From positions 89,264 through 153,263 of the forward strand of contig NZ_JACYVH010000001.1 of assembly GCF_014842255.1 (NCBI RefSeq): a DNA stretch of 64,000 nt, in the 5' to 3' direction. The notes under the pieces are model-generated. The model ran no database searches, was not told the DNA's origin, and saw only the letters and a list, made by a program, of their open reading frames with translations. Numbering within the stretch: position 1 is the first letter of the stretch; each line of letters starts with the position of its first letter. The translations under genes and the position numbers were made by a program. The stretch is from Frigoribacterium sp. CFBP 13712. GTDB lineage: Bacteria > Actinomycetota > Actinomycetes > Actinomycetales > Microbacteriaceae. This document shows positions 2,613 through 62,342 of the stretch, in pieces.

Positions 2613-2658
2613 GACGGCACCTCACGACCCGCGCCTCCTCGGGTCGTGAGGTGCCGTC
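2613..2658 (+). terminator. 18-bp perfect hairpin with the dispersed motif in its loop
   Basis: The arms GACGGCACCTCACGACCC (2613-2630) and GGGTCGTGAGGTGCCGTC (2641-2658) are perfectly complementary. The 10-base loop is GCGCCTCCTC. Loop plus the adjoining stem base carries the 11-bp motif CGCGCCTCCTC that recurs through the window. It lies 18 bp after the dehydrogenase stop. Confidence 0.88.
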
Positions 2659-2820
2659 CGTGCGTGGACGGCCGACGGGAATACGACGAGTTAGCCGACA
2701 GTTCATCGAAACGCGCACCTGCGTTCATGACATTCGGAGCAATCCAGTGATGGACTTAGTGTCGAATCAACAACGAGGGTCTCGTCCCGAGCCCCCGTCG
2801 GCGACATCGAAGAGAGAACC

Positions 2821-3804
2821 ATGGATCTCCGGACGGCCGAACACCCCAGGCCGAACCACTTCATCCTGCACCTCAGCGACACGCATCTCGTCGGCGGTGA
2901 CGGCGACCTCTACGGGGCCGTCGACAGCGAGGCCCGTCTCCGGCAGATCGTCGCCGAGATCGAGGCCTCGGGAAACAGCCCCGAGGCGATCGTCTTCACG
3001 GGCGACCTCGCCGACAAGGGCGAGCCGGACGCCTACCGGAAGCTGCGCGAGCTCGTCCAGCCGATGGCCGACCGCCTCGGCGCCCAGGTCATCTGGGCGA
3101 TGGGCAACCACGACGAGCGCGGGGCCTTCCGGGAGCAGCTCTTCGGCCAGCTGCCGTCGCAGCGACCGGTCGACCTCGTCTACGACGTCAACGGTCTGCG
3201 GATCATCACCCTCGACACGACCGTGCCCGGGCACCACTACGGCGAGCTGTCGGGCGAGCAGCTCGACTGGCTGGCGGAGGAGCTCAGCACCGACGCCCCC
3301 GACGGCACCATCATCGCGATGCACCACCCGCCCGTGCCGAGCGTTCAAGACCTCACCGCCCTCGTCGAGCTGCGTGACCAGGCGTCGTTGGCCGAGGTCG
3401 TCGAAGGCAGCGACGTGCGGTCGATCATCGCCGGGCACCTGCACTACTCGACCAACACGGTCTTCGCGGGGATCCCCGTCTCCGTGGCCTCGGCGACTTG
3501 CTACACGCAGGATCTCAACGCCGCGGGCGGCGGCACCCGCGGACGCGATGGCGCCCAGTCGTTCAACCTGGTGCACGTGTACGAGGGCTCTGTCGTGCAC
3601 TCGGTCGTGCCGATCGGCACCTACGAGACCGTCGGCGAACGCGTCCCGGCCGACGTCGTGGCCGAGCGCCTGGCCCTCGCCGGGGTGCGCATCGCCCCGG
3701 CGGCACCGCGCCACCGGGCGACCGACACCGCGCCCGTGCCGCTGCCGCTCGCCGCGCCTGCTCGGCAGGACTACGCCCTCACCGGGCCCATCGACACCCT
3801 GTAG
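2821..3804 (+). CDS. Metallophosphoesterase, CpdA-like 3',5'-cyclic nucleotide phosphodiesterase
   Basis: This 327-residue calcineurin-like phosphoesterase has the full set of metal-binding motifs: D20-x-H22 (LSDTHL), GDL at 61-63, GNHDE at 96-100, HHPP at 168-171 and GHLH at 205-208. This order and spacing match the CpdA/Icc and Rv0805 type, which hydrolyses cAMP and other cyclic nucleotides. Actual substrate specificity is inferred. The start at 2821 follows a GAAGAGAG purine stretch. There is no signal peptide, so it is probably cytoplasmic. It stands alone between the preceding hairpin and a repeat-rich gap. Confidence 0.85.
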
Positions 3805-3907
3805 CGGCGGTGCCGGGCGCCTGGGGAGCCTTTCGTCGCGTCGGTTCGTGCCGGTGCCGGCCGGTGCCGGTCGGTGCTGGTCGAGAACGCGAGCAGCCGC
3901 GGTGCAC

Positions 3908-4003
3908 GTCGGCAACTCCTCACCTGTGCGTCGCCGCGAGTCGCCCGCCCCGAGGATGCGCGGGCCGGGTCGCGAACGTCTTCACGCGTGGGGAGTTACC
4001 GAC
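3908..4003. repeat. Palindromic element, copy 1 (96 bp)
   Basis: It begins GTCGGCAACTCCTCAC and ends GTGGGGAGTTACCGAC, giving terminal inverted repeats of about 16 bp with two mismatches. Complementarity continues inward imperfectly (CGCCGCGAGTCGC against GCGAACG and GGGTCGC segments), so the whole unit could fold as one long hairpin. It may be a MITE- or REP-like element or a structured RNA. Confidence 0.6.
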
Positions 4004-4069
4004 AGCGCGCGACCACACACGTGCTGAATCCGAACACGAGATCTGCGCAGGCGGCGGGACGCGCCCCGC

Positions 4070-4164
4070 GTCGGCAACTCCTCATCCTTGCCCGCCGAGC
4101 CAGACCGCGCCCCCGAACGAGGGTGGTCATCAGCCGAACGGTGCAGAAGCCAGGAGTTGCCGAC
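4070..4164. repeat. Palindromic element, copy 2 (95 bp)
   Basis: It begins GTCGGCAACTCCT and ends AGGAGTTGCCGAC, a 13-bp perfect terminal inverted repeat. The arms continue with further partial pairing (CCGAGCC against GGCTGA-type sequence read in reverse). It has the same termini and almost the same length as copy 1, while the interiors differ, as expected for diverged copies of one mobile or structured element. Confidence 0.6.
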
Positions 4165-4250
4165 GGTGGGCGCGGCGTCGGGCGGTACGGGAGTGCGGCC
4201 CAAGGCCCGGCCCGACGCGCGGCCCGGCGCGCGGCCCCCGGGTGTCTCCG

Positions 4251-60027: not shown

Positions 60028-60029
60028 CG

Positions 60030-60590
60030 TCAGCTGCCCGCCTTAGCGTTCTGGTCGGCTTCGAGGTCGGCCAGGAAGCGGTCGACGACTGCCGACGCCT
60101 TGGCGTCGTCGTTGAGCGACTCGCCGATGACACCCGACGCGAGGTCGATCGCGAGCGATCCGACCTCGGCCCGGAGGGAGGCCACGGCGGCCTGGCGCTC
60201 GGCCTCGATCTGGGCGTGTGCAGATGCTGTGATGCGATCGGCGTCGGCCTGAGCCTGCTGCTTGATCTCGGCGAGGATCTCGTTGCCCTCGGCACGCGCC
60301 GCCTCACGGATGCGCGCAGCCTCGGCCCGAGCGTCCGCGAGCTGCTTCTTGTACTCGTCGAGGGCCACGGCGGCCTCGGCCTGAGCGGCCTCGGCGTGCT
60401 TGATGCCACCCTCGATCTTCTCGGCGCGCTCGTCGAGGATCTTGCGGAACCTGGGGATCGCGAAGATCCCGAAGAACGCAGCGATGACCACGAAGACGAC
60501 GAGGGACCAGAGGATGTCGTAATCGGCGGGGAAGAAGATGGCAGCCCCTTCGGGCGCGCCGCCTTCGGCCGCGAGGATCGTCTCGATCAT
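60030..60590 (-). CDS. atpF: ATP synthase Fo b subunit
   Basis: The 186-residue b subunit has one N-terminal helix (about 27-46, ILWSLVVFVVIAAFFGIFAI) and a long charged coiled coil rich in Ala, Glu and Arg. Together they form the peripheral stalk. ADYDILWSLVVF before the helix is typical for actinobacteria. It is separated from atpE by about 20 bp and followed within three bases by atpH. Confidence 0.96.
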   Translation of the reverse strand: MIETILAAEGGAPEGAAIFFPADYDILWSLVVFVVIAAFFGIFAIPRFRKILDERAEKIEGGIKHAEAAQAEAAVALDEYKKQLADARAEAARIREAARAEGNEILAEIKQQAQADADRITASAHAQIEAERQAAVASLRAEVGSLAIDLASGVIGESLNDDAKASAVVDRFLADLEADQNAKAGS

Positions 60591-60610
60591 CGGTGTGTCG
60601 TCCTAACTGA

Positions 60611-60844
60611 TCAGGAGAAGATGAAGCCGGCGGCGAGGCCGATGAAGCCCAGCAGCTCGGTGAATGCGATACCCAGGAACATGGTGACCTGGAGGCGGCC
60701 GGCGAGCTCGGGCTGACGAGCCATGGCTTCGACGGTCTTGCCCGCGACGATGCCGATACCGATACCGGGGCCGATCGCAGCGAGGCCGTAGCCGACGGTC
60801 GCGATGTTGCCGTTGATCTCAGCGAGGATCGTGGTGGTGTCCAC
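60611..60844 (-). CDS. atpE: ATP synthase Fo c subunit
   Basis: This 77-residue c subunit has two helices. The glycine-rich first helix shows [13 protein letters not shown]. The ion-binding carboxylate is Glu63 in FTELLGFIG, which indicates a proton-type ring as judged from surrounding residues. The GTG at 60844 is preceded by AAGGAAACACAA. Longer upstream frames overlap atpB and are not c-subunit-like. Confidence 0.96.
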
Positions 60845-60900
60845 TTGTGTTTCCTTCCGGTTGGGCGGTGTCCGTCGGTCGACGGACGCCGTCGTCGTTC

Positions 60901-61749
60901 TTAGTGTTCTTTCGCCGCAGCCTGTTGGATGTAGACCGAGGCGAGGAGTGTGAAGACGTAGGCCTGCAGGATCGCGACGGCCATCTCGACGATGGTCATC
61001 ACGAAGCCGCCGATGAGGGTCAGGGCGCCGAAGGCCATGAACCCGCCGCTCATGCTGAAGAAGAAGAAGTGCGTCGCCGCGAAGCAGAGCACCAGCAGGA
61101 GGTGTCCGACCATCATGTTCAACAGGAGTCGGAGGGCGAGCGAGATCGGACGCACGATGAAGATGTTGATGAACTCGATCGGCGTCAGCAGGATGTACAT
61201 CGGCCACGGGACACCGGGCGGGAAGAGCGCGTTGCGGAAGAACGTGCCCGTACCCGCCTCGCGGATGCCGGCGTAGATGAACATGATGTACGCGACGACG
61301 GCCAGCAGCAGCGGCATGGCGACGACGGACGTGCCGGCGATGTTGAGCCCCGGGATGATGCCGGTGATGTTCATGGCGAAGATGCCGAAGAACATCGCGG
61401 CCAGGATCGGCAGGTACTTGCGACCGAGTCGTTCGCCGAGGATCTCCTCGACGATCTGGATGCGGACGAAGTCGAGGCCCAGTTCGGCGATGCTCTGCCC
61501 ACGGGACGGGATGAGCCGGCCCTTGCGGAGAGCCAGCCAGAACAGCAGCAGCATGACGGCGATCGCGAAGAGGCGGACCAGCATGATGCGGTTCAGTTCG
61601 AAGGGCGTGCCCTCGAAGAAGATGGCGGGCGGGAAGAACTCGTCAAGAGTCGGGGCGTGGAATCCCCCGTCTCCGTGGCCGGCATCGGCGGCGGAGAGCA
61701 GGTTCACAGCGTTCGCTATCAGCGCTATCTCCTGTGTCGGGGCGAGCAC
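60901..61749 (-). CDS. atpB: ATP synthase Fo a subunit
   Basis: The 282-residue a subunit has five or six helices. The essential arginine is in [22 protein letters not shown] (core LALRLLLNM). The N-terminal periplasmic part ([22 protein letters not shown]) is typical. Start choice is uncertain: GTG 61749 gives [15 protein letters not shown] but lacks a clear ribosome-binding site. The 164-bp gap upstream is comparatively AT-richer and may hold the atp promoter, for example TAGGGT/TTATCT boxes near 61820-61830. Confidence 0.95.
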
Positions 61750-61913
61750 CCTGAAGTGTCGCGACGATTGGTGGGTTTGTCATCCGATAACCCGCAGAGA
61801 ATCGCGGCCGGGGAACGGAGATAACCCTACCAAGGTATGGACCGCAGAGACGAATCGGCTGAGCTTATTTCACCCGCTGCAGTGTTCGCTGGCAGGTCTG
61901 CAAGGGTCTGCTG

Positions 61914-62342
61914 TCAGTCGCGTGGCGCCGGGGGCAGCGACGCGTCGCTCACGTGCGACAGACGCCCCCTCACGACCACCAGGGCGTCGATCGCGAGCGT
62001 CCCGATGATCGAGACCACGAGCGACAGGAACAGCACCACGTCGTCCACGAACGGCTGATCGCGCACGAGCACGAGGAGGACGATGAAGATGACGAGCTTG
62101 AGGAGCCACGCGCCCATCACGATGCCGAAGAAGGCGGCGAGCTCGAAGCGGATCGCCACGAGCATGCTGGCGGCCGTGATGCCCGCGAAGAGCACGGCGA
62201 GGGCTGTTCCGAGCAGGGCGCTGTACAGGCCGTCGGTGCCGGCGGCGAGGTAACCCGCGCCTCCTCCGACGACGGCGATGACGAGGGCCAGCACGGCCGT
62301 GTAGCGCAGCACCTGCACGAAGATCGATCGGGCGTCGTTCAT
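61914..62342 (-). CDS. Small membrane protein upstream of atpB (AtpI-like position)
   Basis: This 142-residue protein has four hydrophobic segments (about 13-35, 41-62, 70-95 and 104-125). It sits where actinobacteria often encode an AtpI-like or uncharacterised protein ahead of atpB. Sequence similarity to AtpI is not strong enough to assign a c-ring assembly role. Its ATG overlaps the WecA-type gene stop by four bases. An exact motif copy at 62256-62266 is read as GGGAG inside the first helix. Confidence 0.75.
   Translation of the reverse strand: MNDARSIFVQVLRYTAVLALVIAVVGGGAGYLAAGTDGLYSALLGTALAVLFAGITAASMLVAIRFELAAFFGIVMGAWLLKLVIFIVLLVLVRDQPFVDDVVLFLSLVVSIIGTLAIDALVVVRGRLSHVSDASLPPAPRD

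Follow-up and report, generated by a model that had tools for sequence, protein, structure and literature searches.

A dispersed 11-base word of Frigoribacterium that probably works like a genus-specific DNA-uptake word

Introduction

Frigoribacterium is a leaf-dwelling genus of the Microbacteriaceae, in the phylum Actinomycetota. In a 64-kb stretch of the genome of Frigoribacterium sp. CFBP 13712 (contig NZ_JACYVH010000001.1, positions 89,264 to 153,263), hereafter referred to as the window, the 11-base word CGCGCCTCCTC recurs inside genes and between them and in both orientations, which raises the question of what such a word does. An earlier note on this DNA, made from the letters alone, compared the word with the DNA-uptake sequences of Neisseria and of the Pasteurellaceae, and also considered an element like the repetitive extragenic palindromes (REP). 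Uptake words have been described for two Gram-negative families only, as far as the examined parts of the literature go (PMC5031613, PMC12616744). Here, we counted CGCGCCTCCTC in the window, in the genome to which the window belongs (G000; 3.16 Mb in 40 contigs) and in relatives, and we analyzed its placement, its conservation and the genes of competence. Judged from sequence comparison, CGCGCCTCCTC probably works like a DNA-uptake word specific to Frigoribacterium; the machine is likely to be comEA/comEC together with a Tad/Flp pilus.

Results

The window, which has a G+C content of 71%, holds 13 exact copies of CGCGCCTCCTC, six on the plus strand and seven on the minus strand. The earlier note had found all of them, with the same 7-to-6 split, and 12 of its coordinates were exact, while the copy that it placed at 46337 really starts at 46340. 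In 100 shuffles of the window that preserve dinucleotides, the word occurred 0.59 times on average and three times at most, and none reached 13. With up to one mismatch allowed, the window has 31 sites, compared with a mean of 11.25 and a maximum of 20 in the shuffles; 18 of these have one mismatch, and the sites at 8590, 36650 and 42085 that were named earlier are among them. The genome-wide pattern is even stronger than had been claimed, since G000 contains 879 copies (463 on the plus and 416 on the minus strand) and only nine of the reversed word (5 and 4). Hundreds of copies beyond chance of a word of 9-13 bp are a mark of uptake sequences, and CGCGCCTCCTC has it.

All 16 Frigoribacterium genomes contain between 315 and 879 copies, with 1 to 19 copies of the reversed control. 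A scan of 199 genomes of the family included four from Frigoribacterium; the other 195, which represent 84 genera, have 0 to 116 copies, and the control reaches 33 in the top genome. Among 297 genomes of the order, G000 was the sole Frigoribacterium and the other 296 have at most 54 copies. The 17-base ACCCGCGCCTCCTCGGC was found in at least 112 genome stretches; among those listed, 49 are from Frigoribacterium (F. faeni, F. endophyticum, leaf isolates and others) and the remaining 63 are singles scattered over many taxa. The count in the whole genome and in relatives, which the earlier note had proposed as a check, leaves CGCGCCTCCTC far above its controls and restricted to the genus. A small excess (43 copies, control 4) is seen in G023, from another genus of the family. 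This genome has a REP-like repeat (L213:1614-1850 and 17651-17760) in which GGTTTCGAGACGGCGCTTCGCGCCTCCTCAACCCGC, present in repeated and inverted copies, includes the letters of CGCGCCTCCTC, and the excess may be partly due to it. A CGCGCCTCCTC-like word in G022 turned out to be one local array, at L227:17753-18067, which is made of CCGCGCCTCGCCACGCTGCG-like units.

Composition, codon usage and placement were analyzed in a 432-kb sample of G000 that comprises the window and 19 further stretches (14% of the genome), with 386 genes and 88% coding DNA. The genes were called by a custom gene finder trained on the sampled stretches, and their start codons are unverified. The gene finder performed poorly on samples of 40-60 kb from G022, G023 and G105, and no division into genic and intergenic DNA was taken there. 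Over the 1,980 arrangements of its letters, the mean is 1.2 copies in the 432 kb, compared with 107 copies of CGCGCCTCCTC itself. Only CGCGCCTCCTC and the word that overlaps it with a shift of one base, CCGCGCCTCCT (142 copies), reach 20 among these arrangements, and CGCGCCTCCTC together with its overlapping words tops the ranking of 11-mers. When synonymous codons were shuffled within each gene, with protein and codon usage kept, 9.3 genic copies remained, as against 50 observed. The earlier note had named two results that would explain the word away, a count no higher than that of shuffled letters and an origin in codon preference; neither was obtained.

A count of bases over the 107 copies gives an extended consensus of about RACCCGCGCCTCCTCGGC, which upholds the GACCCGCGCCTCCTCGGC proposed earlier, and base preference around the word spans only about positions -8 to +13. 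A weight-matrix scan found 181 sites above 12 bits, compared with 2 in the reversed sequence, with a matrix built from the same copies. The form CCGCGCCTCCTCG has 86 exact copies. Its single-base variants at the five central positions occur 0-2 times each, near the Markov expectation of 0.1-1.4, and variants at the edge positions are in excess. T and C after CGCGCCTCC are found at 43% and 42% of 238 sites in nine other Frigoribacterium genomes and at 68% and 49% of 419 sites in G000, G002 and G007, a comparison that is conditioned on this core and uninformative about the core itself.

With regard to genes, 50 of the 107 copies are genic and 57 lie outside genes (7 of these past the last called gene of a stretch). 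The density is 1.07 copies per kb outside genes and 0.13 per kb inside, a difference of about 8-fold. The genic copies, 27 on the strand of the gene and 23 on the opposite strand, use two frames each and are read as RASS, PRLL, EEAR and RGGA. By their midpoints, 41 copies lie within 60 bp past a stop codon and 15 within 60 bp ahead of a start. Pairs less than 60 bp apart comprise five inverted and one direct; uniform placement predicts 1.6 adjacent pairs of either kind, an expectation that would rise because copies cluster between genes. The inverted pair 29692/29721 is predicted to form a stem of 22 pairs (29680-29745, z-score -8.0), and a hairpin is predicted around the copy at 2630 (2605-2665, z-score -7.2). 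The earlier note had assigned copies to genes, gaps and terminators; the first two are borne out by 5 genic and 8 intergenic copies in the window, while for terminators there is only the predicted stem of the pair 29692/29721. The genome-wide split between the strands has a binomial p of 0.12, the 432-kb sample, from one contig, has 57 and 50 copies, and no relation between the strand of the word and GC skew is visible stretch by stretch. CGCGCCTCCTC is therefore found in both orientations with no general bias over the genome, and inside as well as between genes, independently of codons and with some inverted pairs.

The word is also conserved in place. For 49 copies of G000 compared with G007, at a mean identity of 87%, 42 are exact; of the other seven, five are not fully aligned and two are substituted. 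Among copies fully aligned over the 11 bases, 42 of 44 are exact; the background fraction of exact matches is 0.289 over all 11-mers and 0.222 if only those with the composition of CGCGCCTCCTC are taken. G007 has exact matches to 24 of the 25 genic copies and to 18 of the 24 intergenic ones. Identity between the two genomes is 0.96-1.00 across the word and mostly 0.7-0.9 in the flanks (0.98 at -18). In the window, which was aligned with 40 kb from each of ten relatives, the best-kept copies are those at 19641 and 34590, exact in nine of the ten. Copies near the ends of the window are mostly unaligned because only 40 kb per relative were compared.

Many sister genera of the family are rich in a second word, GCGGCATCCG (for example G155, L236-L245; G116, L246-L255; G016, L218-L219), which was picked post hoc from excess words in samples of sister genera and then counted in whole genomes. 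By a hand count of the resulting table, more than 500 copies are present in 30 of the 199 family genomes, from 18 genera, for example G155 with 2,441 (control 71), G116 with 1,702 (50), G077 with 1,358 (36) and G016 with 1,179 (20). The four Frigoribacterium genomes scanned show background counts of GCGGCATCCG (G000 34, control 49), as do some other genera, g5 and g45 for instance. Two species of genus g85 have 774 (G120) and 58 (G177) copies, which would fit a recent gain or loss of the system. In 200-kb samples, G155 and G116 have 70 and 77 genic copies, of which synonymous shuffling leaves 7.7 and 5.5. Densities outside and inside genes are 1.03 and 0.41 per kb in G155, and 0.52 and 0.45 per kb in G116; inverted pairs are little over chance, with 6 and 3 compared with 2.95 and 2.5 expected. 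Conservation in place is weaker than for CGCGCCTCCTC. In genus g63, 18 of 31 and 18 of 32 aligned copies are exact (all 10-mers 0.26, same composition 0.20), and in genus g26, 22 of 47 and 23 of 29 (0.34 and 0.25), the first of these being not significant against all 10-mers (p 0.07). The reversed control is exact in 8 of 12 aligned sites over four comparisons, a small number. CGCGCCTCCTC is thus shared by a clade whose sister clades have other words, and GCGGCATCCG is perhaps a second dialect of the uptake word. A literature search for the letters of both words gave no on-topic title among the best 10 of 34 matches, and a search for REP elements in the Microbacteriaceae gave unrelated papers only.

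Competence machinery is encoded in G000. The gene comEA (SLBB and helix-hairpin-helix domains) adjoins comEC (Competence and metallo-beta-lactamase domains) at C1:58.6-61.8 kb; the window begins about 27 kb further on. A Tad/Flp pilus cluster at C1:470.6-473.2 kb comprises a TadA-like T2SSE ATPase, which is the only T2SSE match above the cut-off in this genome, a T2SSF protein (tadB-C-like), a DUF4244 flp-like pilin and a TadE-like protein; beside it are genes that, by eye, we take to be topA and tmk. All 16 Frigoribacterium genomes have comEC, and 13 of them have matches to N-methyl type IV pilins. The three genomes with no such match (G000, G002 and G007) are exactly the three with most CGCGCCTCCTC copies, and a type IV pilus was rejected as the reader of CGCGCCTCCTC in these three. 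In the GCGGCATCCG-rich genomes G155 and G074, the best T2SSE matches are 5e-66 and 2e-42, compared with 1e-138 for full-length PilB-like matches elsewhere; as these genomes are rich in GCGGCATCCG despite such weak matches, a type IVa pilus may be dispensable.

Three lineage-specific segments, 95.8 kb in total, have 3 copies of CGCGCCTCCTC, compared with about 8.7 expected from their surroundings (Poisson p 0.03). In G010, a 38.7-kb segment that includes a phage capsid gene and is missing from G001 has one, a 50.5-kb segment of G001 has two and a 6.6-kb segment of G000 has none. This scarcity, seen in a small sample, would fit uptake words, which are underrepresented in accessory DNA according to the available part of PMC5031613. 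The 20-kb stretches around weak capsid matches in G014 and G002, with 0 and 1 copy, were excluded from the count of mobile DNA, as the matches are below the cut-off. Four segments of G007 that are unmatched in the G000 stretches (9.5, 6.7, 13.1 and 1.7 kb, with 5, 0, 6 and 0 copies) were also excluded, as their partners in G000 possibly lie outside the sampled stretches.

The copies of CGCGCCTCCTC in the window are listed in Table 1. G000 has, in addition, a separate REP-like family, AGGAGTTGCCGAC, which is present four times, as inverted pairs with a spacing of exactly 69 bp, in DNA called intergenic (L031:13164-13427; L032:12418-12712 and 19671-19912).

Table 1 Copies of CGCGCCTCCTC in the window, with their context and their state in the aligned stretches of ten relatives.
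Feature	Position	Strand	Context	Relatives
Exact copy	2630..2640	+	Intergenic; in head of predicted long hairpin 2605-2665	No alignment coverage in the 10 stretches
Exact copy	5708..5718	-	Intergenic, convergent genes on either side	Exact in G007; other 9 unaligned
Exact copy	10832..10842	-	Within called gene 10384-11328 (-)	Exact in G007; other 9 unaligned
Exact copy	14259..14269	-	Within called gene 13743-14612 (+), opposite strand	Exact in 7/10; 2 differ, 1 unaligned
Exact copy	19641..19651	-	Intergenic, 13 bp past end of gene 19665-21365 (-)	Exact in 9/10
Exact copy	29692..29702	-	Left arm of inverted pair (predicted 22-pair stem)	Exact in 4/10
Exact copy	29721..29731	+	Right arm of inverted pair with 29692 (predicted 22-pair stem)	Exact in 3/10
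Exact copy	32358..32368	+	Intergenic	Exact in 3/10
Exact copy	34590..34600	-	Called intergenic; may be first codons of ORF 33602-34615 (-) if upstream GTG is the start	Exact in 9/10
Exact copy	35951..35961	+	First codons of L-asparaginase II-like gene 35941-36993 (+)	Exact in 1/10
Exact copy	46340..46350	+	Within large gene 44543-50395 (-), opposite strand	Exact in 0/10; 1 unaligned
Exact copy	53345..53355	-	Called intergenic; possibly in start of a minus-strand gene	Exact in G002; other 9 unaligned
Exact copy	62256..62266	+	Within gene 61914-62342 (-), opposite strand	Unaligned in the 10 stretches
One-mismatch copy	8590..8600	-	Named in the earlier note	
One-mismatch copy	36650..36660	+	Named in the earlier note	
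One-mismatch copy	42085..42095	-	Named in the earlier note	

Discussion

Our claim concerns what CGCGCCTCCTC works like; the word is not filed as a member of the DNA uptake sequences (DUS) of the Neisseriaceae or of the uptake signal sequences (USS) of the Pasteurellaceae. As an uptake word, CGCGCCTCCTC would be a self tag, through which free DNA of the same genus would be preferred in natural transformation. The word would be held by a DNA-binding protein at the cell surface, for which a minor Tad/Flp pilin or ComEA is the most likely candidate, the pilus would deliver the DNA to ComEA and ComEC, and recombination would swap the resident allele for the incoming one. Since alleles that carry the tag would come in more frequently than those that lack it, the word would build up at sites where it is nearly harmless (past stop codons, in hairpin stems and in permissive codons), and copies that had been lost would be regained. 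The sister genera seem to rely on GCGGCATCCG, which would create a barrier between genera.

The parallel with Neisseria and the Pasteurellaceae that the earlier note had drawn holds in part. It is supported by the excess of copies, the use of both strands, the 3'-end and intergenic placement, the inverted pairs, the independence from codons, the conservation, the range limited to one genus, the possible dialect and the presence of competence genes. We grade it as partly supported because the competence genes are nearly universal, the sample of mobile DNA is small, and uptake and the receptor are what we infer.

Several observations weigh against an uptake role. In the family, comEC is present in 195 of the 199 genomes and a T2SSE match in all 199 (198 above the cut-off). 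Being nearly universal, these genes do not track CGCGCCTCCTC and discriminate nothing, and an attempt to link the word to their presence across the family failed; they allow uptake but do not single out Frigoribacterium. No N-methyl type IV pilins (E 0.001) were found in G000, G002 and G007, so a receptor of the Neisseria type is without a detectable counterpart in the three richest genomes. The TadE-like match of the pilus cluster is under Pfam's cut-off, and the protein that would read the word is a candidate only. In the sample, 31 of the 41 copies past stop codons share the orientation of the gene (p 0.001), which could hint at a role at the RNA level, and the window copies at 35951 and 46340 are hardly kept among the relatives (Table 1). 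The placement of GCGGCATCCG is unlike that of CGCGCCTCCTC, as it is barely denser outside genes in G116 and its genic copies fall mostly in two frames in the samples of both G155 and G116. The sparseness of CGCGCCTCCTC in lineage-specific DNA is suggestive, and with its small sample it is counted as a weak point. Finally, a search of the literature on Frigoribacterium and competence gave no report of a competent Frigoribacterium among the matches listed.

The main rival explanation is a dispersed binding site of a genus-specific chromosome-organising, repair or nucleoid protein, with no role in uptake. Hundreds of conserved copies in both orientations within one genus would agree with such a site, and the intergenic bias suits protein binding. 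About half of the copies are genic, however, in several reading frames, some form inverted pairs, and an unrelated second word is dispersed in sister genera. None of these points is decisive. We know of no chromosome-binding protein with such a pattern, and we regard this explanation as unlikely.

The word could also be an element of RNA, part of a terminator or a signal for 3'-end processing. The copies past stop codons, with their bias towards the orientation of the gene, and the two predicted hairpins of the window agree with this. However, just 5 inverted pairs closer than 60 bp are found among the 107 copies, nearly half of the copies are genic, often opposite the strand of the gene, and all but one of the genic copies compared with G007 are exact there, which leaves an RNA element a slim chance. 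An oriented signal of recombination or segregation, of the kind of Chi or of the FtsK-orienting polar sequences (KOPS), would likewise be a short, high-copy, genus-specific word. Chi and KOPS are strand-biased, whereas CGCGCCTCCTC is balanced between the strands, has no visible relation to GC skew and is denser between genes. This candidate, highly improbable in our view, was rejected for want of an orientation with replication, as judged from strand counts and GC skew and not from mapped replichores.

A repeat of the REP type, or of the type of bacterial interspersed mosaic elements (BIME), spread by a transposase-like protein, would share with CGCGCCTCCTC the intergenic bias and some inverted pairs, and the REP-like element of G023 includes the same 11 letters. 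In Frigoribacterium, however, base preference is limited to the short span given above, half of the copies are genic, and the sequences that flank the window copies are unlike one another and unlike the element of G023. CGCGCCTCCTC has no palindromic unit with shared flanks, and the REP-like idea of the earlier note, for which genes of REP-associated tyrosine transposases (RAYT) were not searched for, is unsupported for this genus and hardly credible. Codon preference or base composition, which a G+C-rich word in a G+C-rich window might suggest, is refuted for the 432-kb sample by the letter-arrangement and synonymous-shuffle tests and, with the word denser outside genes, has practically no probability.

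Returning to the uptake word, a broader proposal has roughly even chances. The Microbacteriaceae may have a family-wide uptake code of self-recognition, independent of those of the Neisseriaceae and Pasteurellaceae, read by Tad/Flp pili and written in at least two mutually exclusive words, CGCGCCTCCTC and GCGGCATCCG; a switch from one word to another would cut off gene exchange and could mark the point at which a genus arises. If true, the code would be without precedent in Gram-positive phyla, within the literature examined, and would represent an independent origin of sequence-tagged sex. It would also offer a non-pathogen system for asking what purpose uptake tags have and a handle on the partners of gene exchange among leaf bacteria. 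The reading of CGCGCCTCCTC as an uptake word predicts that DNA bearing it is taken up by Frigoribacterium more readily than DNA that lacks it. Literature searches on uptake sequences in Actinobacteria and Gram-positives and on Micrococcus competence, which covered few subscription papers, gave no such word among the matches listed.

Among known systems, the DUS of the Neisseriaceae, such as ATGCCGTCTGAA, are recognized by ComP, a type IV minor pilin. CGCGCCTCCTC resembles them as a short word with hundreds to thousands of copies, genic and intergenic, with inverted pairs and genus dialects, as described in the accessible sections of the sources (PMC3630211, PMC5031613, PMC6370729, PMC2346458). 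It differs in its letters, in being actinobacterial with a predicted role in uptake, and in the lack of N-methyl pilins in the three richest genomes. A ComP-like receptor was not found in G000, G002 and G007, and CGCGCCTCCTC is not filed as a DUS because no N-methyl pilin match was obtained there. The USS of the Pasteurellaceae, AAGTGCGGT and ACAAGCGGT, likewise comprise two words, each with its own sub-clade of a single family, and show a bias towards gene ends (PMC2346458, PMC12616744, available parts). In the Pasteurellaceae, co-variation between protein families and the word carried has been analyzed (PMC12616744). The Pasteurellaceae words share the core GCGG (PMC12616744, in the part available), whereas CGCGCCTCCTC and GCGGCATCCG, for which uptake is predicted, have no evident shared core. 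Micrococcus luteus is transformed by means of a Tad/Flp pilus with comEA/comEC (PMC4322843, PMC6370729, partial texts). The term 'uptake sequence' is absent from the accessible text of PMC4322843, in which the authors describe tad with comEA/comEC as frequent in the actinobacterial lineage. In its Tad/Flp and comEA/comEC parts, which are similarly encoded, G000 resembles Micrococcus luteus.

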